A DNA stretch of 64,000 nt from Acetobacter senegalensis. GTDB lineage: Bacteria; Pseudomonadota; Alphaproteobacteria; Acetobacterales; Acetobacteraceae. A program made the position numbers and the translations under genes. The stretch spans positions 1-64,000 of the forward strand of contig NZ_LHZU01000135.1 in assembly GCF_001580995.1 (NCBI RefSeq), in the 5' to 3' direction. Positions 42,790 through 58,633 of this stretch are shown here, piece by piece. Within the stretch, counting starts at the first letter, position 1. Each line of letters opens with the position of its first letter. Under the pieces are notes generated by a model that did no database searches, was not told the DNA's origin, and saw only the letters and a list, made by a program, of their open reading frames with translations.

Positions 42790-42834
42790 GAGGATATGGT
42801 TCTTCTGTGAAGGGTGCCCCGAGGGCGGTTGAGC

Positions 42835-43736
42835 CTAGGAAATCGTGTCGAAAAGCAGTTTGAAGTTGAGAACCAGAATGACAACCGCCTCGATCCACGA
42901 GAGCGCGGCGAGTTTCCTGGAAATGACGAACTCGCCCATTTTTCGGCGGTCGGAGACGAACAGGACCAGAGGAATGACGGCAAAGGGCAGTTGTATCGAC
43001 AGGATGACTTGGCTGAACAGCAGCAACTCGCGATGTACAGCATCTGGCTATTGGTCACGACCTCAGGCGACGGAAGGAAACCCTTCACGATACCCGCCAG
43101 AGGCGGGGCTGCCGCCACGACCTGAACGGCGAAGCAAATGGCAATGATGCTCAGAAGCCCGATGATAAAGGCTTCCAGATAGCGGAAGCCCCTGTTCATC
43201 AGGAACAGGATAATGAAGGTATCGAGCACCGAGATCACGGCGCCCGCAAGCAAAGGAATCCCGAACAGGAGTTGAAGCGCCACGGCCGTGCCGATGACCT
43301 CGGCCAGATCACAGGCGATGATGGCCAGTTCGCAGGCCAGCCACAGTATGATGTTGATGGCCGGTGGAAAATGGTCGCGACAGGCCTGTGCGAGATCCCG
43401 CCCGGTCGCGATGCCCAACCGTGCTGACAGGCCCTGGAGTAGGATCGCCATCAGGTTCGACAGCATAATAACGGAAAGCAAGGTGTAGCCGAACTGCGCA
43501 CCGTCCTGGAGATCGGTCGTCCAATTGCCGGGATCCATATAGCCGACCGAGACCATGTAACCCGACCCCACGAAGGCCAGAAAACGCCGGAGCCAAGATG
43601 CGTCGCCAGACGACAGATGCACCGTGGCAAAGGCTTCCGGCAGGCTGTTACTGTCGGTTTCCGTCAGCTTGGCAAAGCGCGAGACTCTAGGTTTCGAGAC
43701 AGGAGACGGAGTGCTGACGTGAGTGCGATGGGCCAT
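42835..43736 (-). pseudogene. mntH: NRAMP manganese transporter MntH with internal deletion
   Basis: The N-terminal five to six helices are intact: [20 protein letters not shown] (DPGN metal site), [20 protein letters not shown] and [20 protein letters not shown]. After SQMLYIA the sequence jumps, in another frame, to [20 protein letters not shown] and [16 protein letters not shown], which is the last quarter of MntH. About 120-140 residues, including the MPH metal-binding helix, are missing at about 43037, and the reading frame is lost. The product cannot be a working transporter. Confidence 0.85.
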
Positions 43737-44261: not shown

Positions 44262-44672
44262 TCAGACCGTGTCAGTCAGCCAGTCCTCGGTTCGAAGACC
44301 CTCTACCCGCTGAAATTCACGCAGATTACCGGTCACCACAATCAGCCCTCTGCTCCGGGCATGCCCGGCAATCATGAGGTCATATGGACCTATGATACGG
44401 CCATTCCGTTCAAGTTCGGCCCGAATGTCTGCCGTATGGGCGGCCGCTTCACTGTCGAATGGCAGGATCGCCAGCCTTGCCCCAAAGTGCTCGACCTCAC
44501 GTCTTGTGCGCACGGGATCAGACGAGCGTTCCGCGCCATAAAGCAGTTCATACAGAACCACGTCCGAGATGCAAAGTTCCTCCGCACAACTGTTGAACTT
44601 CGGACGCAACCCCTGCGGCCGATCTCGCAATACCCGGATACAGAGGTTCGTATCCAGCAGGTAACGCAGCAT
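44262..44672 (-). CDS. vapC: VapC-type PIN-domain toxin
   Basis: 136 residues. PIN-domain acidic residues are visible: Asp7 in RYLLDTNLCIRVLRD, Glu in SDVVLYELLYGAER, and Asp in IIGPYDLMIAGHARSRGLIV with the following VTGNLREFQRVEGLRTEDW. VapC toxins are magnesium-dependent ribonucleases, often cutting tRNA-fMet or rRNA. Its ATG directly follows the vapB stop, so the pair is one operon with the antitoxin first. Located beside IS remnants, typical of mobile toxin-antitoxin modules. Confidence 0.92.
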   Translation of the reverse strand: MLRYLLDTNLCIRVLRDRPQGLRPKFNSCAEELCISDVVLYELLYGAERSSDPVRTRREVEHFGARLAILPFDSEAAAHTADIRAELERNGRIIGPYDLMIAGHARSRGLIVVTGNLREFQRVEGLRTEDWLTDTV

Positions 44673-44897
44673 TCAGAGCGCCTCACGTTCCTGCATGACC
44701 GGCTGGTTCCGCTCTCCCAGATCCAACCCGGGAGCCGCAAAGAAATTATCCCACGCTGCGTCAGCGGGGGCTATGATCCGTCGTGAACCTTCGGACACAA
44801 TGACGACGTCACGCACTTGCTCCCCGAAGGCGACCATCTTTGGCAGACGCACTGCCTGCGAGCGGTTGGATAGAAAGAGTGTCGTACGGGTCAGCAT
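44673..44897 (-). CDS. vapB: VapB-type antitoxin
   Basis: 74 residues from the ATG at 44897, with GGGAGGG eight bases ahead; the GTG two codons upstream sits too close to that site. N-terminal AbrB-like swapped-hairpin DNA-binding domain (TLFLSNRSQAVRLPKMVAFG) and an acidic C-terminal toxin-binding tail (PADAAWDNFFAAPGLDLGER). It binds VapC and represses the operon. Confidence 0.9.
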   Translation of the reverse strand: MLTRTTLFLSNRSQAVRLPKMVAFGEQVRDVVIVSEGSRRIIAPADAAWDNFFAAPGLDLGERNQPVMQEREAL

Positions 44898-45079
44898 TGG
44901 CACATCCCTCCCAATGGATATGCATCATGTATATCCCATTTCAACAAAGATGTCCCGTACTTTCAGGCTCCTCCGCACCACATGCATACAATCCGGACAG
45001 GTGATACAGTGGCCCTTCCGCCTGCCCGATGATGGGATCGCTCTCCGGTCTCCCGGAAAGATAAAAAGACAGCATTCAT

Positions 45080-45846
45080 GACGGACAGGCCACGAAAACG
45101 GAGTAACGCTTTCGCTTTGGCAGAAGAGCGGGGGCGCCACTTGGAGGGATGTTTCCAGTGGAGGACAGGGGGCGCCGATTGTTGAACCAGGCGACCCATT
45201 TAAGCGTTGCCTACTCAACAGCTTCCCTGTTTTTCCATGACCCCCGGTCGATAGACGAGTTCGGTTTTATAACGTCCGTTAAATAGTCTCTGCGAGGGCG
45301 TTATCATAGAGATCCCCAACACTTCCGACAGACGCGACCAGTTCAGCGTCAGCCAGTCTTTGCGTGTAGCAAATGGGTACATATTGGACGGATTCAACCG
45401 GTCGTCGCAACACTTTCGATTATATGTTGTTTGAGCAGTTGGTCGAGTGCCTCTGCTGGTGTTTACCAACCGAGTGTTTTGCGTGGCCATGTATTCAGGG
45501 CAGGAGCAACCGCATCTAATGCATCGATAACATACTGGCTGCCGGTGCTCATCAATGAAGCTGGTCATGGTCTGAAGCGGCGGCCGAGTTCTCCTTGCAT
45601 AAAATATGCTAACGCCTTGCGCAGGATTTCATTCGCCTGCTGCAGTTCGCGGGTCACTCACCGCAGGCCCATTGGCGCGCCATGCAGACGGGTCCATTTC
45701 GACAGCATGTTAGGATCAATATCCCGCTTTGGAGCGATCATCATCACCGCAGACCACCGCGAAGGACGGTTCTTCTTTTCCTCCAGAACCATGCAGGCTG
45801 CAAGTTCGTAAAATTCAGGCAGAAAACGCTTCGGTTTATTGCCCAT
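45080..45846 (-). mobile_element. IS3-family remnant, split by foreign sequence
   Basis: On the minus strand OrfA is recognisable: KPKRFLPEFYELAACMVLEE, NRPSRWSAVMMIAPKRDIDP and TRELQQANEILRKALAYFMQ, then the OrfB start MTSFIDEHR. After an intervening IS30 fragment (45394-45548) the OrfB end follows: RLADAELVASVGSVGD, LYDNALAETI, LKWVAWFNNRR-type and SSTGNIPP. Multiple stops and frameshifts; the middle of OrfB is missing. Confidence 0.75.
45394..45548 (-). mobile_element. IS30-family transposase C-terminal fragment inside the IS3 remnant
   Basis: Reads YVIDALDAVAPALNTWPRKTLGW, in-frame TAA, TPAEALDQLL, then HIIESVATT and stop. This is the ending of IS30 transposases (LNxRPRKTLGWKTPAEAL). Only about 50 codons; inserted between the OrfB start and OrfB end of the IS3 element. 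Confidence 0.75.
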
Positions 45847-46120
45847 GAATTCTTCTCACCTCACAGCTCTTTCTGTCTCCACAAAACCTAGGGCAATTCA
45901 CTATTAGATCCTGTTTTATAGATCCTGTTTTACGAATTCCTTGAGCAGCACAGTTTTGATGTAATTCCGGTGAACGCGCGAGCCGCTTCTGGCCTGCCAG
46001 AATCCCAGACACCCGCAATTCCAGCTTCTCCTCAGATGAAGCCCCTCAATCATTATATCCGAAAGGCAGAGTTGCCCATAAATTCTGACTTCATGGAAAA
46101 ACGTAACGAAAACCAACTTT

Positions 46121-47458
46121 TTACTTCAGAAATTTAAGAAATAAATCTAAATCTTCAACTGATCTCATGAAGTAAACACTATACCAAACGTCGGAATTTT
46201 TCTTCAATACAGACTTTGTGTTCTGGAAAAACTTATTTTTTATGTCTTGCTTAGAAACATCAGGCAACGAACGTGAGGCATAGGAAATTGATCTGGAGTT
46301 CTTCAAAACGACAGTAACTTTTGCAAAACGCTTTTCTGGAGCTTCTTGCAGAGATGGAGCCTGAAAATCTGTTTCTCTTGCAATGAGTGACATTACAGAC
46401 AAAATGTCTGGTGCTATGGCGTCATCTTTAAACAAGGATAAATCAACATTTTTTTTGACAAGAAAAGCTGCCAAAATATACTCAATACTGAATTGTCCTT
46501 TTCTACCCGTTTCTGGTTTTGTTACAGTCAAGGCTGCATCTCCTCCAGAAGGAAACGTAACAATTACTTTTTCTATTTCATCCAATGAAAAATTATTATT
46601 TTTACGCAACTCTAGGAAAGCAGAAATCGGCAAATAGCTAGCGCCACAACATGGATATAGCTTGAAAATTAGTCCGGGATTTTCAAAGGCCCATTCTTTT
46701 CCCCAACCGTTCAGGCATATTGATGGCAGTGCGTCATCCATGCCTAATGTTTTAAAAAATCCAAATTGAGAGTCGAGAATATCTCTATTTCCCTCAACAC
46801 CAGCAAGAGTTAAGAGAATAGCTGATATAGCAGAACGTGCAGCAAAACCTGCATGAATAGGCTTCACTTCAGTTGAAAACTGAGCGCGTAATCCCGCTGC
46901 TTGAGTAGCCGCTATTCCTAAAGCATTACTTAGCAAATCGGGTGTCACGTTTAATAAATACCCAAGGGCAACCGTAGCACCTAAAGGACCCAAAGTTGCT
47001 GTTGCATGAAAGCCTGTCTCGTAATGTCTATGGCGCATGGCACGCCCTAACCGCGCCATGGCCTCCACTCCCACACAATACGCCGCTAAGAACTGGATAG
47101 CCGTGACATTCGGAATGTTTGGCAAGTATGCAAACAGAGCGGACAATACCACAATGCTGGGGTGGCCTCTTACGTCGGAATGGATATCGTCAAAATCGAG
47201 AACATGCGAAAGTGTCCCGTTTAATAATGCCGCTGTTGCCGGGTCCACTACTGTCTCTTGACCAAGGAGGAAGCTGCCTTTTTGCCCAGCCAGCGGCAAA
47301 AAAGCTGCTCTCACTTTCTGATAGGCTGGATTATCAATGCCCGCAAAAGCGCAGCCTAGGTAATCGATTAAACCCGACCGAGAAAGCTCAATCACACTTT
47401 CTGGAGGATGTGTCGTTAAAGCCAGCTCTGAAAAACGATATGTTAGGGAATAAGGCAT
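46121..47458 (-). CDS. MmgE/PrpD-family protein (YxeQ-like)
   Basis: 445 residues from the ATG at 47458, with TAGGAG nine bases ahead; ten upstream codons overlap the monooxygenase end. MmgE/PrpD signature segments: LIDYLGCAFAGIDNPAYQKV, ATAALLNGTLSHVLDFDDIH, HPSIVVLSALFA, RHYETGFHATATLGPLGATV and GWGKEWAFENPGLIFKLYPC. Family members are 2-methylcitrate dehydratases and relatives acting on succinyl or citrate-like acids. Length and operon context equal those of B. subtilis YxeQ in the S-(2-succino)cysteine pathway. Last gene of the 53843-46121 operon; its 3' end is distinctly AT-rich. Confidence 0.85.
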   Translation of the reverse strand: MPYSLTYRFSELALTTHPPESVIELSRSGLIDYLGCAFAGIDNPAYQKVRAAFLPLAGQKGSFLLGQETVVDPATAALLNGTLSHVLDFDDIHSDVRGHPSIVVLSALFAYLPNIPNVTAIQFLAAYCVGVEAMARLGRAMRHRHYETGFHATATLGPLGATVALGYLLNVTPDLLSNALGIAATQAAGLRAQFSTEVKPIHAGFAARSAISAILLTLAGVEGNRDILDSQFGFFKTLGMDDALPSICLNGWGKEWAFENPGLIFKLYPCCGASYLPISAFLELRKNNNFSLDEIEKVIVTFPSGGDAALTVTKPETGRKGQFSIEYILAAFLVKKNVDLSLFKDDAIAPDILSVMSLIARETDFQAPSLQEAPEKRFAKVTVVLKNSRSISYASRSLPDVSKQDIKNKFFQNTKSVLKKNSDVWYSVYFMRSVEDLDLFLKFLK

Positions 47459-47471
47459 AAAAAAACGGCTC

Positions 47472-48785
47472 CTACACTTTGGAGACAAAGCTGTTTTGTG
47501 GCCTTTCCAGACCTAAAATGTCGCGTAATGTTGCGCCCTCATACTCTTTCCTGAACAGTCCTCTTTTCTGCAATTCAGGAACAACATAGTCTACAAAAAG
47601 TTCAAATTGTCCCGGAAACCATGCTGGCATGATATTGAAGCCATCAGCCGCGTTACTCTCAAACCACTGCTGCAAATGGTCGGCAATAACAGATGGGGTG
47701 CCTTTTAGTACATTATGACCACGTGCCATCCCAACATGTAACGCTAACTCGCGCACGGTCATATTCTCTCTTAAGGCAAGAGCCTTCAAGAGCTCACCCC
47801 TGCTTTGGATTTCATCAGAAATAGCAAGATCTGCTGGAAGTGGGCCATCAAGGTCAAATTGCGTAACATCGTGCCCAAGACGTTCTGAAAGAAGCCCAAG
47901 CGCACTGGGTAGATCCGTCAATTCTTTTAGTTTTTGATAGTTTTCTTCTACTTCCTTTTCGTCACGACCAATAACCGGGAAGACACCGGGCATAACAACA
48001 AGGTCGTTACGCTCTCTACCAAAGGTTACAAGGCGTCCTTTAAGGCTTGCGTAAAATGCTTGCGCTTCTGCCAAATCTCCTTGTGCGGTAAAAACGATGT
48101 CCGCTGTACGTGCCGCAAGATTTTGTCCAGGCACTGAGGAACCTGCCTGAATAATAATTGGATGCCCTTGTGGTGGTCGCGATGCATTCAGCGGACCCTG
48201 AACCGTAAAAAATTGCCCTTTGTGGTTTAGTTGGTGCATTTTGCTTGGCAGAGCAAAAGTTCCGCTGGTCTTGTCGGCCACAATTGCACCATCGTCCCAA
48301 CTGTCCCACAACCCTTTGCAAACGTCGACAAATTCTTCCGCTATTTCATAACGGTTGTCGTGACCCGGGTGGGTGGACCGGGTAAAATTAGCAGCAGAGC
48401 GTGCGTAACTGGTTGTGACCACGTTCCAGGCTGCACGGCCATTACTGAGGTGATCAAGGGAAGCGAACGTACGCGCCACCTGATAAGGCTCACTATAAGT
48501 AGTAGAGACCGTCGCTGCCAGTCCTATATGCCGGGTGGACATGGCAATTGCGCCCAGCAAAGTTGTAGGCTCAAATCGGACCATGGTGGAAGGATGTGCT
48601 GTCAGGCTTGATGTCAGGCCATCCGCCAGAAAGAAAAGATCAAACTTGCCACGCTCTGCTATCGCGGCGATTTTCTGGAGAAGTGCTAGGTTTTCTGACC
48701 CCGTTTCCGCTTCTGGCACTCTCCATCCTGAAACATGGTGCCCTGTTGCTTGCACAAAAACGCCTAAATGCATTTGTTTTGACAT
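47472..48785 (-). CDS. Flavin-dependent monooxygenase, NtaA/SnaA/DszA family (YxeK-like)
   Basis: 437 residues, a luciferase-like monooxygenase. Family landmarks: LGVFVQATGHHVSGWRVPEA, AERGKFDLFFLADG, RFEPTTLLGAIAMSTRHIGL, STTYSEPYQVARTFASLDHL and NGRAAWNVVTTSY (the NVVTS flavin/substrate loop), then HPIIIQAGSSVPGQNLAAR. It uses FMNH2 and O2 to cleave C-N or C-S bonds. In B. subtilis YxeK oxidatively cleaves N-acetyl-S-(2-succino)cysteine; order and partners here match that operon. No flavin reductase gene lies in the island. Confidence 0.88.
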   Translation of the reverse strand: MSKQMHLGVFVQATGHHVSGWRVPEAETGSENLALLQKIAAIAERGKFDLFFLADGLTSSLTAHPSTMVRFEPTTLLGAIAMSTRHIGLAATVSTTYSEPYQVARTFASLDHLSNGRAAWNVVTTSYARSAANFTRSTHPGHDNRYEIAEEFVDVCKGLWDSWDDGAIVADKTSGTFALPSKMHQLNHKGQFFTVQGPLNASRPPQGHPIIIQAGSSVPGQNLAARTADIVFTAQGDLAEAQAFYASLKGRLVTFGRERNDLVVMPGVFPVIGRDEKEVEENYQKLKELTDLPSALGLLSERLGHDVTQFDLDGPLPADLAISDEIQSRGELLKALALRENMTVRELALHVGMARGHNVLKGTPSVIADHLQQWFESNAADGFNIMPAWFPGQFELFVDYVVPELQKRGLFRKEYEGATLRDILGLERPQNSFVSKV

Positions 48786-48812
48786 AGCTTTGTCCTTATC
48801 AAAATTTCACTA

Positions 48813-49568
48813 TCAAGACTGACGAAGAAAATCGGCAGTGCGCACATGTTGTGGATGGGTAAATAAGTCATGTGAGGGGCCGTGTTCGATAATGCGACCA
48901 TTCTCCATAAACGCGACGTTACCTTGCAAAGCGCGGGCAAAACTTAGTTCGTGTGTTACAATCACCATGGTCATTGCTTGCTCGCTTAATTGCTTCAGCA
49001 ATCTCGCCATGCTCTGCACCAGTTCCGGGTCTAATGCCGCCGTAGGCTCATCAAACAACATGACTTCAGGCTGCATGATAAGCGCTCTGACAATGGCAAC
49101 ACGCTGCTGCTGACCACCAGAGAGTGATGGCGGGAGAGCATTTGCGTGACTTTCCAAACCCACAGTTTTTAAAAGAGCCAATGCCTGATCTATAACATCC
49201 CCTCTCTTTTTCTTGAGGATTTTAATTGGCGCAATGACAATATTTTCCAAAACGGAAAGATGTGGGAAAAGGTTGTATTGTTGAAAAACCATGCCTATTT
49301 GGGTTCTCTGGCGTGCAATTTCTCGACCGGAGAGTTCGTATAGCTTGTCACCAGTTTGTCTGTAACCGATGATTTCACCGTTCAGCCGAATAATGCCACT
49401 ATCAATACGATCAAGATGATTAATGCACCGTAGTAATGTGGACTTTCCAGAACCCGAAGGGCCAAGTAGCACACAAGTCTGTCCCGATGGTACAATTAAG
49501 TTGATGTCATCAAGGATGGTTTTCCCTGAAATTTTTCTGGAAACACCTGATATTTCAAGACCGCTCAT
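48813..49568 (-). CDS. Polar amino-acid ABC transporter ATPase (YxeO/GlnQ-like)
   Basis: 251 residues. Walker A VLLGPSGSGKSTLLRCI, Q-loop GMVFQQYNLFPHLSVLENI, signature PPSLSGGQQQRVAIVRAL, Walker B EVMLFDEPTAALDPE and H-loop VIVTHELSFARAL. Length and the FQQYNLFPHLT-type motif place it in the polar amino-acid (PAAT) family. Its start overlaps the permease stop by four bases. Energises import of a cysteine-derived compound in the proposed pathway. Confidence 0.92.
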   Translation of the reverse strand: MSGLEISGVSRKISGKTILDDINLIVPSGQTCVLLGPSGSGKSTLLRCINHLDRIDSGIIRLNGEIIGYRQTGDKLYELSGREIARQRTQIGMVFQQYNLFPHLSVLENIVIAPIKILKKKRGDVIDQALALLKTVGLESHANALPPSLSGGQQQRVAIVRALIMQPEVMLFDEPTAALDPELVQSMARLLKQLSEQAMTMVIVTHELSFARALQGNVAFMENGRIIEHGPSHDLFTHPQHVRTADFLRQS

Positions 49569-50398
49569 AACGGCTGATCCTTACGCGAAAGTCGCCCCTC
49601 CACCCAGTATTGCCCTATGGATAAGAGAGACGTGACAACAAGATACCAGAGAGAGGCAACAATCAGGAGCGGTATAACATCATATGTGCGTTCATAAATT
49701 TCCTGAGCAGAATACAGTACATCCTGCAATGCTATCACAGAAACAACAGATGTTGCTTTTAATGTGCTTATAATCTGATTGCCCGCAGCAGGTAAAATGA
49801 CTCTGAATGCCTGTGGAAAAACAATGCTATACATCACGCCAGAATTGGTAAACCCTAACGCCCGAGCGGCATCCCGCTGTCCAGTTGGAATACTCCGTAA
49901 GCCGGTACGTATAATTTCACTGGTATATGCGGCGTCATGAAGAACCAATGCTAGAACTGCTGCGGAAAAGCCGGTCAACACATGGTTTGTTGGGAAAGAA
50001 TATAGCTCGCCCAAACCGGGCAGGGCCAAAACTAAGCGCGGATACAACGCGGCAATATTGAACCAGAAAAATAACTGTACAAGCATGGGAACAGAACGAA
50101 AAACCCATACATAAAACCAGCTTACACTTTGTAGTAGCCTACTATCGGCCTGCCGCATTGCTGCTAAAACAGTACCAAGTGGAAAGCCAAAAAAAACTGC
50201 AAAGAATGTCAGTTCAAGCGTGATCAGCAAGCCTTTGAGCAGGGCTGGTGCAGTAAAATCTGCAAAAACGATCTGCCATTCAAAACGAGGGTTTTTAAAA
50301 ATTGAATACAGAAGTGCGGCAACACAGGCGGCAACCACTATGGTCGCAAGGCGTTCCGCAATTTTTGTTTTGGGCACAATAACAAGGTTATGGCTCAT
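49565..50398 (-). CDS. Polar amino-acid ABC transporter permease (YxeN/HisM-like)
   Basis: 277 residues from the ATG at 50398 (GAAGGG seven bases upstream). Helices include AERLATIVVAACVAALLYSI, LLKGLLITLELTFFAVFFGF and LTGFSAAVLALVLHDAAYT. The EAA loop for ATPase contact is SIPTGQRDAARALGFTN. A cytoplasmic/first-helix extension of about 45 residues makes it longer than YxeN (about 224). Overlaps both neighbours by a few bases. Confidence 0.9.
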   Translation of the reverse strand: MSHNLVIVPKTKIAERLATIVVAACVAALLYSIFKNPRFEWQIVFADFTAPALLKGLLITLELTFFAVFFGFPLGTVLAAMRQADSRLLQSVSWFYVWVFRSVPMLVQLFFWFNIAALYPRLVLALPGLGELYSFPTNHVLTGFSAAVLALVLHDAAYTSEIIRTGLRSIPTGQRDAARALGFTNSGVMYSIVFPQAFRVILPAAGNQIISTLKATSVVSVIALQDVLYSAQEIYERTYDVIPLLIVASLWYLVVTSLLSIGQYWVEGRLSRKDQPL

Positions 50399-51338
50399 GT
50401 AAGGCCCTTCCATCATTTTGTGCGCCTACGGAATTTAGAATATCCATATTGCTATAACTTTTTCCAATTTCACCGTAAGAAATACCCCATTTACCAAGTA
50501 TTTTCTGGTAAATGCCGAGCTCTATTAAACGATTAACTGCATCTGTTATAACCGGTGTTAGCGAGGACTGGCGGGGTAAGCCCATTCCAACATAGCTTCC
50601 GTGGCGGTCTAGTGTAGCAGTAAGAACAACTTGGCCGTGGCTGCCTTGCGCCATGGCCTTTACGCCTTCGTAAGGGCCAAGAAAATAAGGAACACGCCCA
50701 CTAATAATAGCCTGAACACCTGCTGGGCGGGATGGAAAAAGCATGACAGTAATAGGCGCTGCCCCCGCTTGTTTGCAGTCTCGACTATGGTTTTGCAGCA
50801 CAGTTGCATTTTCTGTGCCAGATCCTGCTCCTATAGTGAAACCGCATAAATCATGCCACTGGGTCACCTGTCCTTGCGTTGTAGCCAAACCTAGGAGGCC
50901 AAGGCGCTTGTCATCAAAATAGGAAACAAAATCTATTTTTTTGAGCCGTGTTTCTGTTACATTCAGGTTAGCCAAAGCGACATCATAACGATGGCTGGCA
51001 AGCCCAAGGACCGTGCTTCCCAAGCTTCCAGGGTTCGCCCAGTACAGCTTTAACCCCAGTAGTTGGGCTACAGCTGCCATGATATCGATCTCCCTGCCCT
51101 GCAACTGCATCGTATCTGGCGTAAGAAACACCGTGGGTGGCGTTGTCGGGTGAGTGGCAACCAACAACGCTCCACTGCGCCTGTATTCAGCCGGGACACG
51201 CTTTTGCAGATCCTGTGCAACAGGCACGGAAATATCTGTTTGGTACGGAATAAAATTTTCCGCCTTGCGCCCTAAGTTCTGAACCAGAAAAAGGCCTAGA
51301 ACCATAAGAACACCCGCACAAAACACCTCTTTCTTCAT
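50388..51338 (-). CDS. Polar amino-acid ABC substrate-binding protein (YxeM-like)
   Basis: 316 residues. N-terminal hydrophobic segment VFCAGVLMVLGLFLVQNLG lacks an obvious lipobox cysteine at a signal-peptidase II site, so it is either periplasmic or membrane-anchored. Family 3 binding-protein motifs: LQGREIDIMAAVAQLLGLKL (GFDVDL-type), YDVALANLNVTETRLKKIDF and FTIGAGSGTENATVLQ. The receptor gene precedes it by 18 bases. In this operon it would deliver the outer-membrane receptor's substrate to the permease. Confidence 0.88.
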   Translation of the reverse strand: MKKEVFCAGVLMVLGLFLVQNLGRKAENFIPYQTDISVPVAQDLQKRVPAEYRRSGALLVATHPTTPPTVFLTPDTMQLQGREIDIMAAVAQLLGLKLYWANPGSLGSTVLGLASHRYDVALANLNVTETRLKKIDFVSYFDDKRLGLLGLATTQGQVTQWHDLCGFTIGAGSGTENATVLQNHSRDCKQAGAAPITVMLFPSRPAGVQAIISGRVPYFLGPYEGVKAMAQGSHGQVVLTATLDRHGSYVGMGLPRQSSLTPVITDAVNRLIELGIYQKILGKWGISYGEIGKSYSNMDILNSVGAQNDGRALHEP

Positions 51339-51356
51339 GAAAAAAGTGACTTGCTT

Positions 51357-53843
51357 TTAGAAACTTGCATTAACGCGTCCATAGTAATATGCGCCATAAA
51401 TAGGCAGACTGGATGCAACCTGATCATACGGGCGTGTGCCAAGATAGTTGTTTTGTGTCGGAACATGCCGTGGCCGTTGGTTGAAAATATTATTCGCGCC
51501 AATGGAAGCATGCCAGTGTCGGTTAAAGCGATACCCCACTTCCAGATCAGTCATCCAGACAGGTGTGTTGCTGAATTCAGAAAACTGAGATGTGGAATAT
51601 CTGACGGCCGCAGGCGCTAGATCCTGATATGTTAGCAGCGATGTAGTCTGCCCATAACGTGTCTGGCGCACATTTACATCCCACACACCGTTGCTCCAGA
51701 ATGCATTCAGCACAATTTTGCTCCGTGGCGAGGCTGTGGTGAGGTAACCAATTGTCTGGGCACTTACCAAGGGGTTGCCATCAGCATTTGTATTAACATG
51801 ATGCAGGCGGGTACGATTGAGATTAAGCATCATGGAAAGTGTAAGGTTTCCATATTGGTGCAAATGCAGAAGGTAGTCAGCCTGAAGATCCAAACCTTGT
51901 GTGCGGGTGCTTGCTGCGTTTGCCATATAGTTGGCTTTGATGTTGTTAAGGTCGACATTTCCGCCTGTAGGAAGCTCCATGCCTGTCAGGGCAATAGCAT
52001 CATACGCCGTCTGACCATTCACAAATCCTGATCCAATGATGCGGTCTCGAATATTGATCTGGTAAACATCTGCCGAGATATGGAAGCCATCAATCGGCTC
52101 CAGAATAATGCCACCTTCAACATTGGTAGATCGTTCAGGTTTGAGATGTTGTGCCCCAATTGAGCGACCAGCCTCACTGGTTGTTGACAACAGCCCCGAA
52201 GCTCCGGTGGGGGTTACGCCGAGGTTACTGAAATGCTCTTCAGCCAAAGATGGCGCACGAAACCCGTTACTAACTGTCCCACGTATGGCAATACGCTTGG
52301 TAAAGTCGTAACGTGTGCTGACTTTACCATTTTCTGTGTTGCCAAAGTCCGTATAATGCTCAAAACGGCCAGCGAAATCGAGATCCCAATGTTTAAGTGG
52401 GTGGAAATCTCCATCTATATAACCGGCCCATACATTTCTGTCCCAATGGCCAGCATTATAGGGTGAGAGCGCTGTAGAAGAGGCCATCCCCCCTTCTGAA
52501 TATGAAGCCAGATCGCCTGCGCGAATGCCATACATTTCCAGCCTGTGCTCAGCGCCCATGGCAAGAGTGACAGGTATGGCATGAGCAATAGAGAAATTAC
52601 GCCTTAGATCAAGATTACTGGTCCATTGGGATAAGGTGAAATTTGATGCTCTTACTTTAGTGGGAGAATAGCCATATTTTTTATAATAGCCCGAATTGAA
52701 GGTATCTTTGTTATCAATCCGGTCATTATCTTCTCCGTATAGAGTGCTAATATCCCAATCAAATCCTAGAAGGTTTTTGCCACGGAGGCCAATATTGGCC
52801 TGGTAGTCGTCCTCATCAATGATTTCTAGCGGTGAGAAGCCTGCTGGGAATGCTGTTGGTGCTACTGTTGGCAGGCGGTAGTGCTCTATGGCCTCAGCAT
52901 GACGATGCGCATAAGTAATCAAGCCGTAGCTTTCTATCCCTTCCGTAATAGGCTTTGCCCATTCCAGAGCAAGGTTGCCTCTTGTTTCTTCTGGCGTGGA
53001 AAGACTTTTATCAGACGTAGGTGCCCAGGAAGACCCTGGCGACCATTGGTGGCTCCAGACACTTTTAGAACTGTTGATGAAATGGTCTGTATGGTACACT
53101 TGGCCACTCAAATGCAGGAAGCCATCCCGCCCCAACTTCATTCCGCCATCTATACCAACAGAATATTGCCAGCCGTCACCGTTATAGGCATTCGCTCCTG
53201 TTTGAGCCGAAGCATCCAGACCATGGTCTGTTTTCTTTGTGATGATATTGACAACCCCGGCAATGGCGTCTGACCCATACATAGCGGCCGCACCATCCCG
53301 CAGAATTTCTATGTGGTCAATTGCGTTAGCTGGTATCATATTCAGATCCACAGCTGTTGACCCTTGCTGTGGACCTGCTGCTGCCGTCAGATTGGCTGTT
53401 GTATGCCTGCGCTTGCCATCCACAAGAACCAAAACTTCATTAGGGTTCAACCCACGCATACGAATTGCAGAGGTAAGCGCCCCTGTTTCTGTCGGTAAAG
53501 TTGCCATGGTAATGGACGGGTCAACACGCGTTATTGCATCAGCCAGATTCAGTTGGCCTGACCTCCGTAAAGTTGCGGCAGAGACAACGGTTATAGGCGA
53601 TGTACTATCGCGGGCTTTCCGGTTGGTCGCATGGGTCCCTGTAACAATGACAGATTCTGATTTTTCACTGGAAGACGTCCCTGCGTCCACCACATCGGCC
53701 GGAGCAACAGAGGCATTATTACTATACCGAGTATTCTGAGCATGGGCGGCAGAAAGAGGAAGAGCCGCACAGACGCCAATAAGCAAATACCGCTTTTTTG
53801 TGTGGTTTATATGTTGAAAAAAAAGATCACCACTCAACGACAT
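51357..53843 (-). CDS. TonB-dependent receptor of the yxe-like island
   Basis: 828 residues. Signal peptide KKRYLLIGVCAALPLSAAHA. Plug from about 60: SVIVTGTHATNRKARDSTSP, ITVVSAATLRRSGQLNLADA, IRMRGLNPNEVLVLVDGKRR and HIEILRDGAAAMYGSDAIAG. The barrel ends with YGAYYYGRVNASF, with terminal Phe. The plug's GLNPNEVLVLVDGKRRH pattern is of the large carbohydrate/amino-compound receptor group (CirA/OMR-like), not a classical siderophore group. First gene of the operon, so the whole sulfur-compound route probably starts with TonB-driven outer-membrane uptake, which Gram-positive yxe operons do not need. Confidence 0.88.
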   Translation of the reverse strand: MSLSGDLFFQHINHTKKRYLLIGVCAALPLSAAHAQNTRYSNNASVAPADVVDAGTSSSEKSESVIVTGTHATNRKARDSTSPITVVSAATLRRSGQLNLADAITRVDPSITMATLPTETGALTSAIRMRGLNPNEVLVLVDGKRRHTTANLTAAAGPQQGSTAVDLNMIPANAIDHIEILRDGAAAMYGSDAIAGVVNIITKKTDHGLDASAQTGANAYNGDGWQYSVGIDGGMKLGRDGFLHLSGQVYHTDHFINSSKSVWSHQWSPGSSWAPTSDKSLSTPEETRGNLALEWAKPITEGIESYGLITYAHRHAEAIEHYRLPTVAPTAFPAGFSPLEIIDEDDYQANIGLRGKNLLGFDWDISTLYGEDNDRIDNKDTFNSGYYKKYGYSPTKVRASNFTLSQWTSNLDLRRNFSIAHAIPVTLAMGAEHRLEMYGIRAGDLASYSEGGMASSTALSPYNAGHWDRNVWAGYIDGDFHPLKHWDLDFAGRFEHYTDFGNTENGKVSTRYDFTKRIAIRGTVSNGFRAPSLAEEHFSNLGVTPTGASGLLSTTSEAGRSIGAQHLKPERSTNVEGGIILEPIDGFHISADVYQINIRDRIIGSGFVNGQTAYDAIALTGMELPTGGNVDLNNIKANYMANAASTRTQGLDLQADYLLHLHQYGNLTLSMMLNLNRTRLHHVNTNADGNPLVSAQTIGYLTTASPRSKIVLNAFWSNGVWDVNVRQTRYGQTTSLLTYQDLAPAAVRYSTSQFSEFSNTPVWMTDLEVGYRFNRHWHASIGANNIFNQRPRHVPTQNNYLGTRPYDQVASSLPIYGAYYYGRVNASF

Positions 53844-53864
53844 TACCCTGCGCCTTTATAATTT

Positions 53865-53881
53865 AACTATTTAATATAGTT
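53865..53881. promoter_or_regulatory. Palindrome in the island's divergent promoter
   Basis: AACTATTTAATATAGTT, arms AACTAT/ATAGTT with five-base centre, 22 bases upstream of the receptor ATG and in the 184-base region shared with the M20 gene. It may be an operator or overlap the -10 region (TATAAT-like sequences occur nearby). Confidence 0.45.
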
Positions 53882-54027
53882 GATATAAAATACACCCACA
53901 CAATCTTCCGTCAATAAGGGCGCATGATTTCACGATGGTTTTTTGATGAATAAATATTAATGCCTTAACGGGCCAAAAATGACGCTACCAATCTCCCTAA
54001 TTTAGATAAGTTTCCACAAAAAGGATC

Positions 54028-55437
54028 GTGAAATTGCAAAATGAGAAAACAATCTGGCAACTAGTTGACCAGAAAGGCCCCGTTTTTGAAACTTTAAGTG
54101 AGAGTGTGTGGGACGTGCCCGAAACAAATTTTCAGGAGGTTTCTTCTTGTGCACTTCATAGAGAAACGCTCTTGGAGCAAGGGTTCAGGGTTACAGAGTG
54201 TGCAGGAGGCCTAAAAACTGCTGTCATGGGGGAAAGTGGCAAAGGCGGTCCGGTCATTGCTTTTCTGGGGGAGTTTGATGCACTCCCCAACCTCAGTCAG
54301 CAGGCCAATGTTTCCCACCCTGCCCCGATTACTCCAGACGGTAATGGGCATGGGTGTGGGCATAATTTATTAGGCGCGGGTGCGCTGGCAGCTGCAACAG
54401 CGGTAAAAGACTGGCTGGAACAGACGGGAACACCAGGCACGGTGAGATATTACGGCTGCCCCGCTGAAGAAGGCGGTGCGGGAAAAGTGTTCATGATCCG
54501 TAATGGCGCATTTGATGGCGTGGATTGTGCTATTAGTTGGCACCCTTTCGCTTTTACCACTGTCTGCCCTCCCTCTTCTCTTGCCAATGTCTGCATGGAC
54601 TTTGTTTTCACCGGCCGGTCATCCCATGCTGCGATGTCCCCTCATCTCGGGCGTTCAGCGCTGGATGCAGCGGAGCTTATGAATGTCGGTGTCAATTACT
54701 TACGCGAACACATGCTGCCAACCTCCCGTATCCACTACGCTTATATAAATGCAGGTGGAAAAGCGGCGAATGTCGTTCAGTCAGAAACGCGTATTCGTTA
54801 CATGATACGCGCTGAAAAACTGGAAGATCTTTTTCCGCTACAAAAGCGAGTGGAAAATATTGCGCATGGCGCCGCGCTGATGACTGAAACACAAGTTGAT
54901 ATCCAGGTTTTAAGCGGTATGGCTAACCTCATGCCCGCGCCAAAGCTGGAAAAACTGATGCAGCATAATATTGAAGAGCTTGGTCCACTACCTTTAAGCC
55001 CGACAGACTATCACTATGCTCAGGATATTCAGGCAACCATTCCACAAACCGACATCGTATCCGCGTATAGCATGATGGAAATTCCCTATCAGGAAAATGT
55101 CTCTATCTTTAATGAGATTATTCCGTACCGGCCTTATTTCACAAAAAATATCTTAGGTTCAACAGACGTTGGCGATGTGAGTTGGATTGTACCAACCGTG
55201 CAATTACTTGCAACCACCATGGCAGTCGGAACCTCGCTTCATTCATGGCAGGCTACTGCACAGGGGAAGTCCTCCCTTGCTCATAAGGGCATGCTGCATG
55301 CAGCCAAAATCATGGCTGCAACAGCCATTAATATCCTTGAAAATCCATCGATACTGGAAAAAGAAAACAAAAAACGAGATTATAAAGCCATCATTCCAAA
55401 AACGGTTGAACCGCCGTCAACGCATGAGCCACGATGA
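54028..55437 (+). CDS. M20-family amidohydrolase, AbgB-like (YxeP role)
   Basis: Up to 469 residues. AAGGA at 54021-54025 is too close to the GTG at 54028, so the TTG at 54034 (MQNEKTIWQLV) may be the true start. Metal ligands of the M20 fold are visible: HGCGHNLLGAGALAAATAV (His), CPAEEGGAGKVFMI (Glu-Glu), AISWHPFAF (His) and the C-terminal LHSWQATAQGKSSLAHKGM (His). The dimerisation domain carries FTGRSSHAAMSPHLGRSALD. Most like AbgB, an N-acyl-glutamate-type amidase, and larger than YxeP (about 380). Divergent from the receptor operon; would remove the N-acyl group from the pathway intermediate. Confidence 0.88.
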   Translation: MKLQNEKTIWQLVDQKGPVFETLSESVWDVPETNFQEVSSCALHRETLLEQGFRVTECAGGLKTAVMGESGKGGPVIAFLGEFDALPNLSQQANVSHPAPITPDGNGHGCGHNLLGAGALAAATAVKDWLEQTGTPGTVRYYGCPAEEGGAGKVFMIRNGAFDGVDCAISWHPFAFTTVCPPSSLANVCMDFVFTGRSSHAAMSPHLGRSALDAAELMNVGVNYLREHMLPTSRIHYAYINAGGKAANVVQSETRIRYMIRAEKLEDLFPLQKRVENIAHGAALMTETQVDIQVLSGMANLMPAPKLEKLMQHNIEELGPLPLSPTDYHYAQDIQATIPQTDIVSAYSMMEIPYQENVSIFNEIIPYRPYFTKNILGSTDVGDVSWIVPTVQLLATTMAVGTSLHSWQATAQGKSSLAHKGMLHAAKIMAATAINILENPSILEKENKKRDYKAIIPKTVEPPSTHEPR

Positions 55438-55508
55438 AAGAGGAATTCTATTGGTTTTTAATTTCTGAACTCTTGCTTCAAAGGTGCAGTAAGTAGTGGC
55501 TTGCACTA

Positions 55509-56332
55509 GGCTCAGGACCGATTGATATGGACGGAAGGATGTGATTCAGGCTCCTTGAGGAGACAGAAGATGAGTGATCTGTAGTGGCTGCCGGACCAGC
55601 AGATGGATCGTCTGCGACCCTTTTTCCCGGAGAGCCATGACAAACCTCGTGTTGACGACTGTCGTATGTTGAGCGGGATTATTTTCGTGAACCGAAATGG
55701 TCTGCGCTGGCGTGATGCTCCCCGGGAATACGGTCCACACAAGACGCTCTACAACCGCTGGAAGCGCTGGAGTGCTATGGGGATATTCATCCGCATGATG
55801 GAGGGACTGACTACCGGCGAGGTAGAGCCTCAGACGATCATGATTGATGCGACCTATCTCAAGGCCCATCGCACGGCGTCAAGCCTGCGGTTAAAAAAGG
55901 GGGGCCAGGCCGTCTGATCGGACGGACCAAAGGCGGGATGAATACGAAACTGCATGCCGTCACCGACCGGAACGGACGTCCGCTCGACTTCTTCATGACA
56001 GCAGGTCAGTGATTACACCGGGGCGGCTGCCCGTCTGGACGGTCTTCCACCGGCCGAATGGATGCTGGCAGATCGGGGCTATGACGCTGACTGGTTCCGG
56101 GATGCCCTGGAGGAAAAAGGGATCAGGCCCTGCATTCCGGGAAGAAGATCCCGCGGAAAACCAGTCAAATACGACAAGCGAAAATACAAAAGACGCAACC
56201 GCATCGAAATCATGTTCGGCCGCCTCAAGGACTGGCGGCGGGTCGCAACACGCTATGACAGATGCCCGACCGTCTTCTTCTCAGCCATCTGCCTCGCTGC
56301 AACCGTCTTGTTCTGGTTATGAGTCCTGAGCC
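55509..56332 (+). mobile_element. IS5-family (IS427-like) insertion sequence, damaged
   Basis: Ends GGCTCAGGACC (55509) and GTCCTGAGCC (to 56332) match the terminus at 281-291, though here in the opposite orientation. The two copies are similar but not identical. Flanks do not show an identical short duplication (ACTA versus CAGC), so the element may have recombined after insertion. It lies between the yxe-like island and the zinc island. Confidence 0.85.
55570..56322 (+). pseudogene. IS5-family transposase, early stop and 5-base deletion
   Basis: OrfA starts at the ATG 55570 but the fifth codon is TAG (the other copy has Phe). Reading resumes at QQMDRLRPFFPESHDKPRVD, LSGIIFVNRNGLRWRDAP and PQTIMIDATYLKAHRTASS to the AAAAAAGGGG frameshift run. 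OrfB reads GRLIGRTKGGMNTKLHAVTD, then loses frame at TAGQ where about five bases are missing (expected TAGQVSDYTGAA), and resumes WMLADRGYDADWFRDALEEK and RIEIMFGRLKDWRRVATRYD. It cannot produce transposase. Confidence 0.85.
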
Positions 56333-56425
56333 CAGCGAACAATTAGTTGACCCTGTTGCAGCCAGGGCGAGTAAATGCACGGTTTATCAGCAGGATACTA
56401 AGATGAATTTTATCGGTTGCGTAGA

Positions 56426-58633
56426 TCAGAAGTTCGCGGTCAACGTAAATCTCGCGGAAACTGGTTCAACCGGGTGCCCTGTCGCTCCACTACTTTCAGT
56501 GGAAGTCGGAGTCAGGCGATAGTCATACGCGTATTGCGCTGCGTACCCCCTGTTATTGAACATATTGAAAACATTGGCTTCAAGTCGGAGATTTTTTGTG
56601 AACCTGTATCCAACCATCATATTGAGCTCCTGATATCCTGAGGACCGGAGAGAGTTATCTTCCACCAGCGGATATCCGCCCAACCAGCGCACCTGCAGGC
56701 TTCCATACCAGGGACCATGAGAATCAGCCAGAACGCCAAACGACCATACAAACTTGGGGGCATTTGTCACGAACAACCCGTCAATCCCGTAATAAGCCGG
56801 ATCGTGCGTCCGATAGCGGGCCCGCGCGAAAGACAGGTCTGTGTTGAATTCAAGCCAGGAAAGAGGATTGTATTGTGCAGAAAACTCGACACCTTCCCGG
56901 CGGCTTGCAGGGCCTGGCGAATTCACCCCGTCGTCGCCGTCTTAACTCAATTCGGAATCGAAATCGATGATGAACACAGCCGCCTGCATATGGAAATGAT
57001 CCACAGGAGTTGTGCGCACGCCTATCTCGCCGCTAACGGCTGAGGTCATCAGGGGTACACTGACGGATGTAAATTCGCCCGAATTGTACGAACCCGATAC
57101 CGAACGAAAGTCGTTCGAATGGTAGGCTCGACCAGCACTGAGATACAGTTCCGTTCGCTTCCATGGACCAAAGATCAGACTTCCCTTTGGCTGAAAAAGC
57201 CATTGATGTTTGACGGTACGCGAACCATCGATAAGGTTATCGTCGATGCCACCCTGATAGTCTTCCCGAAGCCCCACAACTGTTCGCAACCATGGAAGCC
57301 AGTGAGTCGTATTCTGTACGTAAAAGCCCACTGCACCGAGATTAATGTTGTCGGCGTTGCACGCATACTGAGCGCTATCATTCAAACTGCCGGGACAATC
57401 CCGAAGCGCTACACGCTCATGGGTATGACGGCGATCAACGTACAGGATGTCATAACGCCCCTGGACACCCACGGATGTCTCGCTCTCAAAACGTCCGATA
57501 TGGTCATTTCGCGAGTAAGTCGATGTGCCTCCCAGCATCGTGCGCGTCTCATCCTGCTGATGTTGATCGCCATTAACGGGATCGTCCAGATAATGCGTGA
57601 AGTTGTTCCACAACGTCATCCGATTGTGCGAAGCAAAAGCGCTGGTAACCCACTTCCAGTTATCGCCGGCCATCCGATAATGCCCGGAGAGGCTATAACG
57701 TTCGGCAAATCCTCCGTCCGTGGGGTCAAGAGATCCGTAGCGACCGATCATCCCGCTGCGCATCGCCTCAAGTGGTTGATCATTTGTCGCGCGCCATTGA
57801 CCACGATAAAACATTCCGGTGAGATCAAAGCCATTACGATCATCACCATGCGTGAAATGCGAAATGGCCCGCAAGGTGCGTGCATTGTCGGGATAGCGCC
57901 ATGGGCCGTCGGCATGCTGCCAGGTGAAGGCATTGACCCACCGGTCTCCATTTTTAAACCTGGTCGTTCCACCAGCGTAGACGCGATAGTCACCCAGCGT
58001 TCCCGCGCTCGCGCTGATCTGACGCGGCACCTCGCTGGCAAGTTTCATGTGATCAGATCCAGCCACACCAAAGTCACCGATATTCGCGTAAAATGGCCCT
58101 TTCGTGTAATCTACTCCCCCCAGCAATTCGGGAATGAGAAAGTTGATATCAGTATAACCTTGCCCATGCGCATTCGTCGCACCGTTAACGGGCATATCGT
58201 CAACAAAGGTCGCCAGATCGGTACCGTGATCCAGGTTAAAACCACGGAGAAGAAGCTGATTGGCTTTCCCTTCGCCGGAATGCGTGGTCACGACGAGACC
58301 CGGAATCGCTTCCAGTATCTGTCCCACACGATAAGCGGGACGCATCTGAAGTTCCTTGGCCGTAATTGTTCCCTGACTGGCAGTTTGTGCCCGCCCGGTA
58401 AGATCCCGGCGCGATGCAACAACTTCAATATGCTCCTGACGAGATCTGGCCTGAACGGCGGGCTGCGACTGCACGACGGCTTTATCAGGTAATATCTTAT
58501 TGGTGGTCACGGGAGTGGTTTGCGCGAACGATTGGCTTGGGCATCCCAATATACATCCAAGAGCACCGCAGGCGCAGAGTATTCCGCGGCCTGCCTGTCT
58601 CCTCGTAAGTCCACGCACTGCACGAGATCGCAT
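56426..58633 (-). pseudogene. TonB-dependent receptor next to Zur-like site, one in-frame stop
   Basis: 735 codons from the ATG at 58633 with a signal peptide (GRGILCACGALGCILGCPSQ). Plug: LQMRPAYRVGQILEAIPGLV, GKANQLLLRGFNLDHGTDLA and FVDDMPVNGATNAHGQGYTD; barrel to the stop at 56426, ending PVSARFTLTANF. A single TAA (56942-56944) splits it after IIDFDSELS. The following codons DGDDGVNSPGPASRREGVEF are in the same frame, so only one codon is affected and no frameshift exists. The NAHGQGYTDINFLIPE plug is of a receptor class often found with zinc-uptake genes. Position after the Zur-like site and ZIP gene suggests zinc uptake. Confidence 0.8.

Follow-up and report, generated by a model that had tools for sequence, protein, structure and literature searches.

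A seven-gene island of about 9.3 kb (46121-55437) lies in the first 64,000 nucleotides of a contig of Acetobacter senegalensis (C76, genome of 3.93 Mb), a stretch that we call the window. As a tentative reading, we suggest that this island may well be a proteobacterial, outer-membrane-equipped yxe/scm sulfur-salvage locus for an N-acylated thioether of the S-(2-succino)cysteine (2SC) type. It would be a novel variant with a probably yxe-like mode of action, and we infer the 2SC-type substrate from this likeness. The reading is supported by the position of the MmgE/PrpD protein in the clade of YxeQ, by a monooxygenase with 51.6% identity to YxeK versus 40.2% to CmoJ, by the specificity of YxeK for N-acetylated substrates in the absence of a YxeL, by binding proteins lacking the ammonium-binding Asp (0 of 20 carry it), by a similar importer that accompanies YxeL, YxeP and a lyase in Winslowiella, and by the epimerase-like active site of YxeQ.

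In the proposed pathway, a scarce thioether of the 2SC type, with its amine acylated beforehand (N-acetyl or peptide-borne), would be captured by TonB receptor and periplasmic binding protein and passed to the cytoplasm by the ATP-binding cassette (ABC) importer. The two configurations of its succinyl carbon would be interconverted by the YxeQ-type PrpD protein, the flavin mononucleotide (FMN) monooxygenase would hydroxylate that carbon, releasing oxaloacetate and N-acyl-cysteine by oxidative C-S cleavage, and the AbgB-type hydrolase would finally deacylate N-acyl-cysteine to cysteine. The order of these steps, the epimerase role and the action of receptor and M20 enzyme on one and the same substrate are what we infer.

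Comparison with known yxe loci

All seven genes are open frames where a sequence-only reading of this DNA had placed them, and its account of the gene content, with a receptor as the first gene and a divergent M20 amidohydrolase, is borne out by the frames and their Pfam and NCBIfam profiles (cut-offs of 279.7 bits for TIGR03860 and 153.75 bits for TIGR01891, the latter exceeded by the M20 protein on the opposite strand; Table 1). The minus-strand genes run from 53843 to 46121 in the order receptor, binding protein, permease, ATPase, monooxygenase and PrpD. Because they overlap or are spaced by 13-27 bp they presumably form a single operon led by the receptor gene, with 18 bp separating it from the binding-protein gene that follows. 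The M20 gene diverges from the receptor gene across 184 bp. For PrpD, the ATG at 47458 (445 aa) is a more likely start than the TTG at 47488, the proteins of A. cibinongensis and A. orientalis having 445 and 448 aa.

In PMC9706529 a yxe/scm locus is defined by clustering of at least three of five components, and by this rule the island narrowly counts as one. YxeQ is represented by the PrpD protein, which falls into a 22-row clade with Bacillus YxeQ (support 100/99), and YxeMNO by the importer (ATPase 42% identical to YxeO, permease 30% to YxeN, binding protein 22% over 161 aa to YxeM). The YxeK component is present by a narrow margin, at 51.6% identity, where the same source takes more than 50% as the mark of a close YxeK homolog; its clade placement is left unsettled by the tree and the approximately unbiased (AU) tests described below. 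YxeL has no match in the genome, and the M20 protein is of the AbgB type and not of the YxeP type. The earlier comparison with yxe has therefore held for three of the five components and failed for YxeL and YxeP, with the tree leaving open whether YxeK or CmoJ is the sister of the monooxygenase.

With the yxeKLMNOPQ operon of B. subtilis (scm, S-(2-succino)cysteine breakdown) the island shares a cluster of YxeK-family monooxygenase, PAAT importer and YxeQ-clade PrpD. It differs from it by lacking YxeL, by an AbgB-type M20 enzyme in place of YxeP, by a binding protein distant from YxeM and by the added TonB receptor. The 2SL-containing yxe loci (Dickeya and Enterococcus in PMC9706529) and a Winslowiella locus share the PrpD clade with the island, Winslowiella also the kind of importer; a lyase, an acetyltransferase and YxeP, all missing from the island, set them apart from it. 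The Winslowiella locus (L086:2930-14987) encodes a YxeK-like monooxygenase (47% to YxeK), an Fe-ADH, a class-I lyase, YxeL (48%), YxeP (46%), a YxeQ-clade PrpD and a molybdopterin oxidoreductase, together with an importer whose ATPase and permease are 54-55% identical to those of the window. Its lyase scores 443 bits against the adenylosuccinate-lyase subfamily, below the cut-off of 626, and is 2SL-like as judged by family and context. A literature search of titles and abstracts returned no description of a receptor-equipped yxe-like locus.

The PrpD protein and the monooxygenase

In a tree of 36 PrpD sequences the window protein belongs to the 22-row clade (100/99) together with Bacillus, rhizobial, Roseomonas and enterobacterial YxeQ-type proteins, while iminodisuccinate epimerase, cis-aconitate decarboxylase (CAD) and eight generic Acetobacteraceae proteins fall outside. 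Ten generic loci had been chosen, two of which (L047, L049) gave no usable frame and were left out; one protein (L080) was read from annotation. In the alignment, inspected by eye, Arg100 is found in 22/22 rows of the YxeQ clade and in 4/14 others, including iminodisuccinate epimerase. Two assignments were rejected: 2-methylcitrate dehydratase, with 23 bits against a cut-off of 575, and CAD (IRG1), which lies outside the clade and lacks the Tyr146 present in the window protein.

A reference Bacillus operon (L084) carries K-L-M-N-O-P-Q in one row, gene names that we assigned by order and length as we take them to be in B. subtilis. Its YxeQ (L084:8537-9874, minus strand) is 97% identical to the chain of 7BRA, and on this identity we equate the structure deposited as 'Bacillus subtilis IRG1' with YxeQ. 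The IRG1 name of the B. subtilis structures 7BRA and 7E9D thus looks doubtful, the 97% match being a yxe-operon protein. As 2SC arises non-enzymatically, both configurations at its succinyl carbon are expected, and the same 1,2-dicarboxyethyl group recurs in iminodisuccinate, the nitrogen analogue; for these reasons we propose, from likeness of the active site, that YxeQ-type PrpD proteins may be epimerases at the succinyl carbon. The active site of 7BRA is completely conserved with that of iminodisuccinate epimerase according to the available text of PMC7347537, which gives docking and in which the terms 'enzyme assay' and 'activity assay' do not occur. YxeQ is listed as a protein of unknown function in PMC9706529.

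Iminodisuccinate epimerase (2HP0/2HP3) belongs to the MmgE/PrpD family, shares Arg100, His102 and Tyr146 with the window protein and is among its nearer solved relatives (163 bits). This likeness is one basis for an improbable alternative, in which the receptor would import a metal chelate of the aminopolycarboxylate or iminodisuccinate type, and epimerase and NTA/EDTA-type monooxygenase would degrade the chelator. It is in line with Pantoea receptors annotated as siderophore receptors near similar genes, and with 3SDO, deposited as NTA monooxygenase, which is near the window monooxygenase (337 bits) and groups with CmoJ. However, iminodisuccinate epimerase stands outside the YxeQ clade and the window PrpD does not group with it, EDTA monooxygenase is a far weaker match than YtnJ (238 versus 357 bits), and the sole acetyltransferase-bearing relative with this kind of importer has a 2SL-like lyase and YxeP. 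The literature search found nothing joining iminodisuccinate, a monooxygenase and an ABC transporter.

The window monooxygenase is 51.6% identical over 434 aa to the YxeK ortholog of a near relative of B. subtilis, 40.2% to CmoJ, 41.1% to 3SDO and 39.6% to DszA; YxeK and CmoJ are 48% identical to each other. Monooxygenase trees were built from 75 rows and then from 46, after 29 duplicates, near-duplicates, long branches and distant landmarks had been dropped. A 34-row clade (96/93) comprises four groups, namely Firmicute YxeK (5 rows), an enterobacterial group (7), CmoJ with 3SDO (10) and the group of the window (12; 93/97), the branching order of which is not resolved in the 46-row tree, so that the sister, YxeK or CmoJ, is not determined by it. 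The window enzyme lies outside the CmoJ clade of 10 rows (100/100), and a sister relation to CmoJ is compatible with the AU test. For the AU tests, groups were defined after inspection of the tree: the 21 YxeQ-linked rows with three others were accepted as one clade (p 0.42), whereas the 21 rows alone were not (p 8e-5), presumably because a Roseomonas enzyme, and also two enterobacterial enzymes that adjoin a PrpD of a different kind, nest with the window's group. The sequence-only reading had named phylogenies pointing to families with another proven substrate as what would speak against it; the PrpD protein is firmly in the YxeQ clade, and the monooxygenase tree remains undecided between YxeK and CmoJ. 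Five more monooxygenase matches of 32-40% identity occur elsewhere in the host genome (contigs C72 and C62; L002-L006, L097, L098), which is thus rich in flavin monooxygenases.

The ytn/CmoJ system of B. subtilis, which acts on S-alkyl-cysteines, has a monooxygenase of the same family and larger clade, at an identity of only 40%. It is the model for a somewhat unlikely, though by no means negligible, alternative, namely that a different S-substituted cysteine or a thioether or sulfoxide is salvaged by CmoJ-like chemistry, the PrpD protein acting on another dicarboxylic part. Such a scheme would fit the failure of the monooxygenase tree to split the window's group from the CmoJ group, the MsrA that three Erwinia plasmid loci encode divergently from their PrpD-monooxygenase operon, SfnB, ssuD or further organosulfur genes near some relatives, and an island without acetyltransferase and YxeP. 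It fits less well with the identities of the window enzyme (40% to CmoJ against 52% to YxeK), with the firm position of the linked PrpD in the YxeQ clade, and with Peribacillus L012, where, unlike in the island, a CmoJ-group enzyme adjoins an acetyltransferase and a YxeP-like M20 protein, with no PrpD hit in the stretch.

Several observations weigh against the salvage of a 2SC-type thioether. The AU test accepts the window's group joined with the CmoJ group just as readily (p 0.51). The 52% identity to YxeK is not diagnostic, since enzymes without an adjoining YxeQ-type PrpD also reach 51-53% to the window enzyme (e.g. L055, L057 with 53%, and L139). His102 and Tyr146 do not single out an epimerase, as they are common to 35/35 non-CAD rows (alignment by eye). 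The ammonium-binding Asp is likewise missing in Bacillus loci that carry the acetyltransferase, and we know of no AbgB-type enzyme that is an N-acetylcysteine deacetylase. The stronger, combined proposal, that YxeQ-clade PrpD proteins including 7BRA are N-acyl-S-(2-succino)cysteine epimerases and that the island is an acetyltransferase-free route for TonB-imported, pre-acylated succinated cysteine or peptides with an AbgB-type enzyme replacing YxeP, is doubtful, though by no means negligible.

Importer, hydrolase and receptor

In an alignment of 25 binding proteins the Arg which we take to bind the ligand carboxylate is present in 25/25, and the Asp which presumably holds the alpha-ammonium group is present in 5/5 controls (AncQR, GlnH, TcyJ, HisJ, ArgT) and in none of the 20 proteins from yxe-like or ytn-like loci. 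The missing Asp was rejected as a sign of acetyltransferase loss, YxeM lacking it too, and is kept solely as a clue to the ligand of the whole group. A structure predicted for the binding protein on the basis of four sequences was discarded, its mean pLDDT (predicted local distance difference test) being 42.6.

A search that was positive in four control genomes gave no YxeL-type acetyltransferase in the three island-bearing Acetobacter genomes, host included, or in the one Roseomonas genome searched. The M20 protein shares 45% identity with E. coli AbgB over 462 aa and 30% with YxeP over 181 aa, and among solved structures it matches HmrA with 136 bits and YxeP with 53, which rules it out as a YxeP ortholog; the island has neither an AbgA partner nor an AbgT transporter. 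Residues aligned with AbgB by eye include the Cys, Glu and His that we take to be its metal-binding motif. A YxeP-like protein (34%) is encoded elsewhere in the host genome, outside the island. Both the absence of YxeL and the AbgB type, which had been guessed from the size of the M20 protein, have thus been upheld.

According to PMC12757645, YxeK is specific for the N-acetylated substrate, and YxeP is specific for N-acetylcysteine and inactive on N-acetyl-2SC. The strict preference of YxeK, the missing ammonium Asp and the failure to find an acetyltransferase together favour uptake of an already N-acylated ligand. The earlier remark that the substrate may arrive N-acylated has gained this indirect backing from the lack of YxeL and of the Asp, but the Asp does not separate the window from Bacillus.

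Receptor copies at least 97% (97-98%) identical occur in 3 of 49 genus genomes, host included, and the receptor family is common in the genus (36/49 at E 1e-150). For 9 of 18 non-island cousins, an NtaA/DmoA-family monooxygenase lies within about 10 kb, in a sample that is not random, as two loci of genome G011 were picked for their previously known monooxygenase; within G011, 2/8 receptors and 2/4 monooxygenases above the cut-off are paired. The cousins show three arrangements (L119; L120-L122; L128-L130 with L134 and L138), and the three scanned binding proteins between cousin receptor and monooxygenase are of the NMT1 type. These neighbourhoods (L119-L122, L128-L130, L134, L138) may represent a wider class of receptor-linked organosulfur loci. 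On plasmids, a Burkholderia relative (43%) is found amid SfnB, LLM monooxygenases and TonB-ExbB-ExbD, and one from Lichenicola (43%) adjoins amino-acid-importer genes; relatives in Zymomonas (55%) and Kozakia adjoin neither monooxygenase nor amino-acid-importer genes. Deducing the ligand from solved receptors was abandoned, the best match having 68 bits over residues 61-207 only.

Roseomonas gilardii and R. mucosa plasmids have the order binding protein-permease-ATPase-monooxygenase-PrpD with a monooxygenase of 74-75% identity. Three rhizobial loci (L053, L142, L143) have PrpD and monooxygenase behind a different importer, and three Erwinia plasmid loci (L056, L140, L144) have the same kind of importer (ATPase and permease 53-58%). 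In the compared stretches of these eight loci there was no match to YxeL, YxeP, an AbgB-type M20 or the receptor; L140 has an annotated, unrelated-looking GNAT gene 5 kb away. As frame calling is imperfect in GC-rich loci, annotation was relied on for L052 and for the PrpD of L051. The divergent msrA gene beside the PrpD-monooxygenase-importer operon of the three Erwinia loci is a hint of sulfoxide chemistry. Pantoea L141 and L145 have monooxygenase, PrpD and importer adjoining an annotated TonB siderophore receptor, weakly similar to that of the window (59 bits); in L146, whose stretch shows no importer, such a receptor adjoins monooxygenase and PrpD. Because the Roseomonas and Erwinia cores occur without either, receptor and M20 enzyme appear to be Acetobacter-side additions among the loci examined. 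A receptor next to yxe-like genes in other alphaproteobacteria, for which the sequence-only reading had advised a search, is present in A. cibinongensis and A. orientalis and has no match in the compared stretches of the Roseomonas and rhizobial loci.

It is conceivable, if rather improbable, that the core is yxe-like while receptor and M20 enzyme are passengers of the island serving another substrate. Roseomonas, rhizobial and Erwinia cores do without them, both M20 relatives with examined context sit elsewhere, and the receptor belongs to a family that is large in the genus and includes the Zymomonas and Kozakia relatives without a monooxygenase nearby. On the other hand, the 18 bp between receptor and binding-protein genes, the preservation of all seven genes together at 90-94% DNA identity in three species and the half of the examined genus cousins near a monooxygenase, non-random as that sample is, argue against this.

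Transfer and surroundings of the island

The island is 94.2% identical to DNA of A. cibinongensis (L007) over 9375 bp and 89.7% to that of A. orientalis (L131) over 9229 bp, so that all seven genes occur together in three Acetobacter species. Outside the island, the window does not align at all to the flanks of L007 (3.3 kb and 8.7 kb) or of L131, which extends 5.9 kb beyond the island at one end and about 170 bp at the other. The cysS gene of the window has local matches alone in these two genomes (69% over 261-305 bp). The island has a guanine-plus-cytosine (GC) content of 46.8%, compared with 53.5% for the remainder of the window, and third-position values (GC3) of 0.35-0.45 for its seven genes; in L131 the flank is AT-rich to the same degree as the island. 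Homology with A. cibinongensis stops at 55503, and a copy of an IS5-family insertion sequence (IS) begins three bases beyond (about 55506). From the high identity between unrelated flanks, the low GC and the IS remnants on both sides we conclude that the island is horizontally transferred between species. The sequence-only reading had described it as apparently AT-richer than its neighbours, flanked by IS remnants and probably acquired; the GC contents, the IS5 copy on the right with transposase, IS30 and IS3 pieces on the left, and the copies in two further species with unrelated flanks agree with this on each count.

In a PrpD search of 299 genomes of the family the four best matches had 100, 91, 47 and 47% identity, followed by 36%. 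An empty insertion site could not be read from a one-flank search of 49 genus genomes, where the best match outside the own genome was partial (72%), and a near DNA search of a plasmid collection did not find the island. Beside the island, a second TonB receptor (56426-58633, minus strand) is split into two frames, a plug part and a barrel part, and looks like a pseudogene. On the other side lie the frame of an Nramp-type transporter (42657-43736, minus strand), which matches the first 164 of 357 profile positions and seems truncated or frameshifted, and a PIN-domain toxin (44262-44924, minus strand) with a weak MazE-like antitoxin frame upstream.

Table 1. Genes and edges of the island, in window coordinates
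Feature	Position	Strand	Properties
TonB-dependent receptor	51357..53843	-	828 aa; first gene of the operon; Pfam plug and barrel
Periplasmic binding protein of importer	50388..51338	-	316 aa; SBP_bac_3; has the carboxylate Arg, with Pro in place of the canonical ammonium Asp
PAAT-type permease	49565..50416	-	283 aa; BPD_transp_1; 53-58% to Roseomonas, Erwinia, Pantoea and Winslowiella importers
Importer ATPase	48813..49568	-	251 aa; ABC_tran; 42% to YxeO
NtaA/DmoA-family FMN monooxygenase, YxeK-like	47472..48785	-	437 aa; TIGR03860 550.9 bits; 51.6% to YxeK ortholog, 40.2% to CmoJ
MmgE/PrpD protein, YxeQ clade	46121..47458	-	445 aa from ATG 47458; MmgE/PrpD N and C domains
AbgB-type M20 amidohydrolase	54028..55437	+	469 aa; divergent; TIGR01891 273.6 bits
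Divergent intergenic region, presumed promoters	53844..54027		alignable across the three Acetobacter copies
IS5-family element copy, right edge	55506..56337 (about)	+	broken transposase frame
Patchwork of transposase/IS30/IS3-like remnants, left edge	45150..46118		piecewise matches to plasmid stretches so annotated

If the proposed reading holds, cysteine damaged by fumarate (succinated), or a closely related compound, would be valuable enough in nature for a dedicated import across the outer membrane. This would bear on the question, left open in PMC9706529, of whether yxe loci serve the repair of internal damage or salvage from the environment. YxeQ would gain a concrete and testable role, and the structure deposited as B. 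subtilis IRG1 would be that of a yxe-operon protein, suggesting that its name is doubtful.

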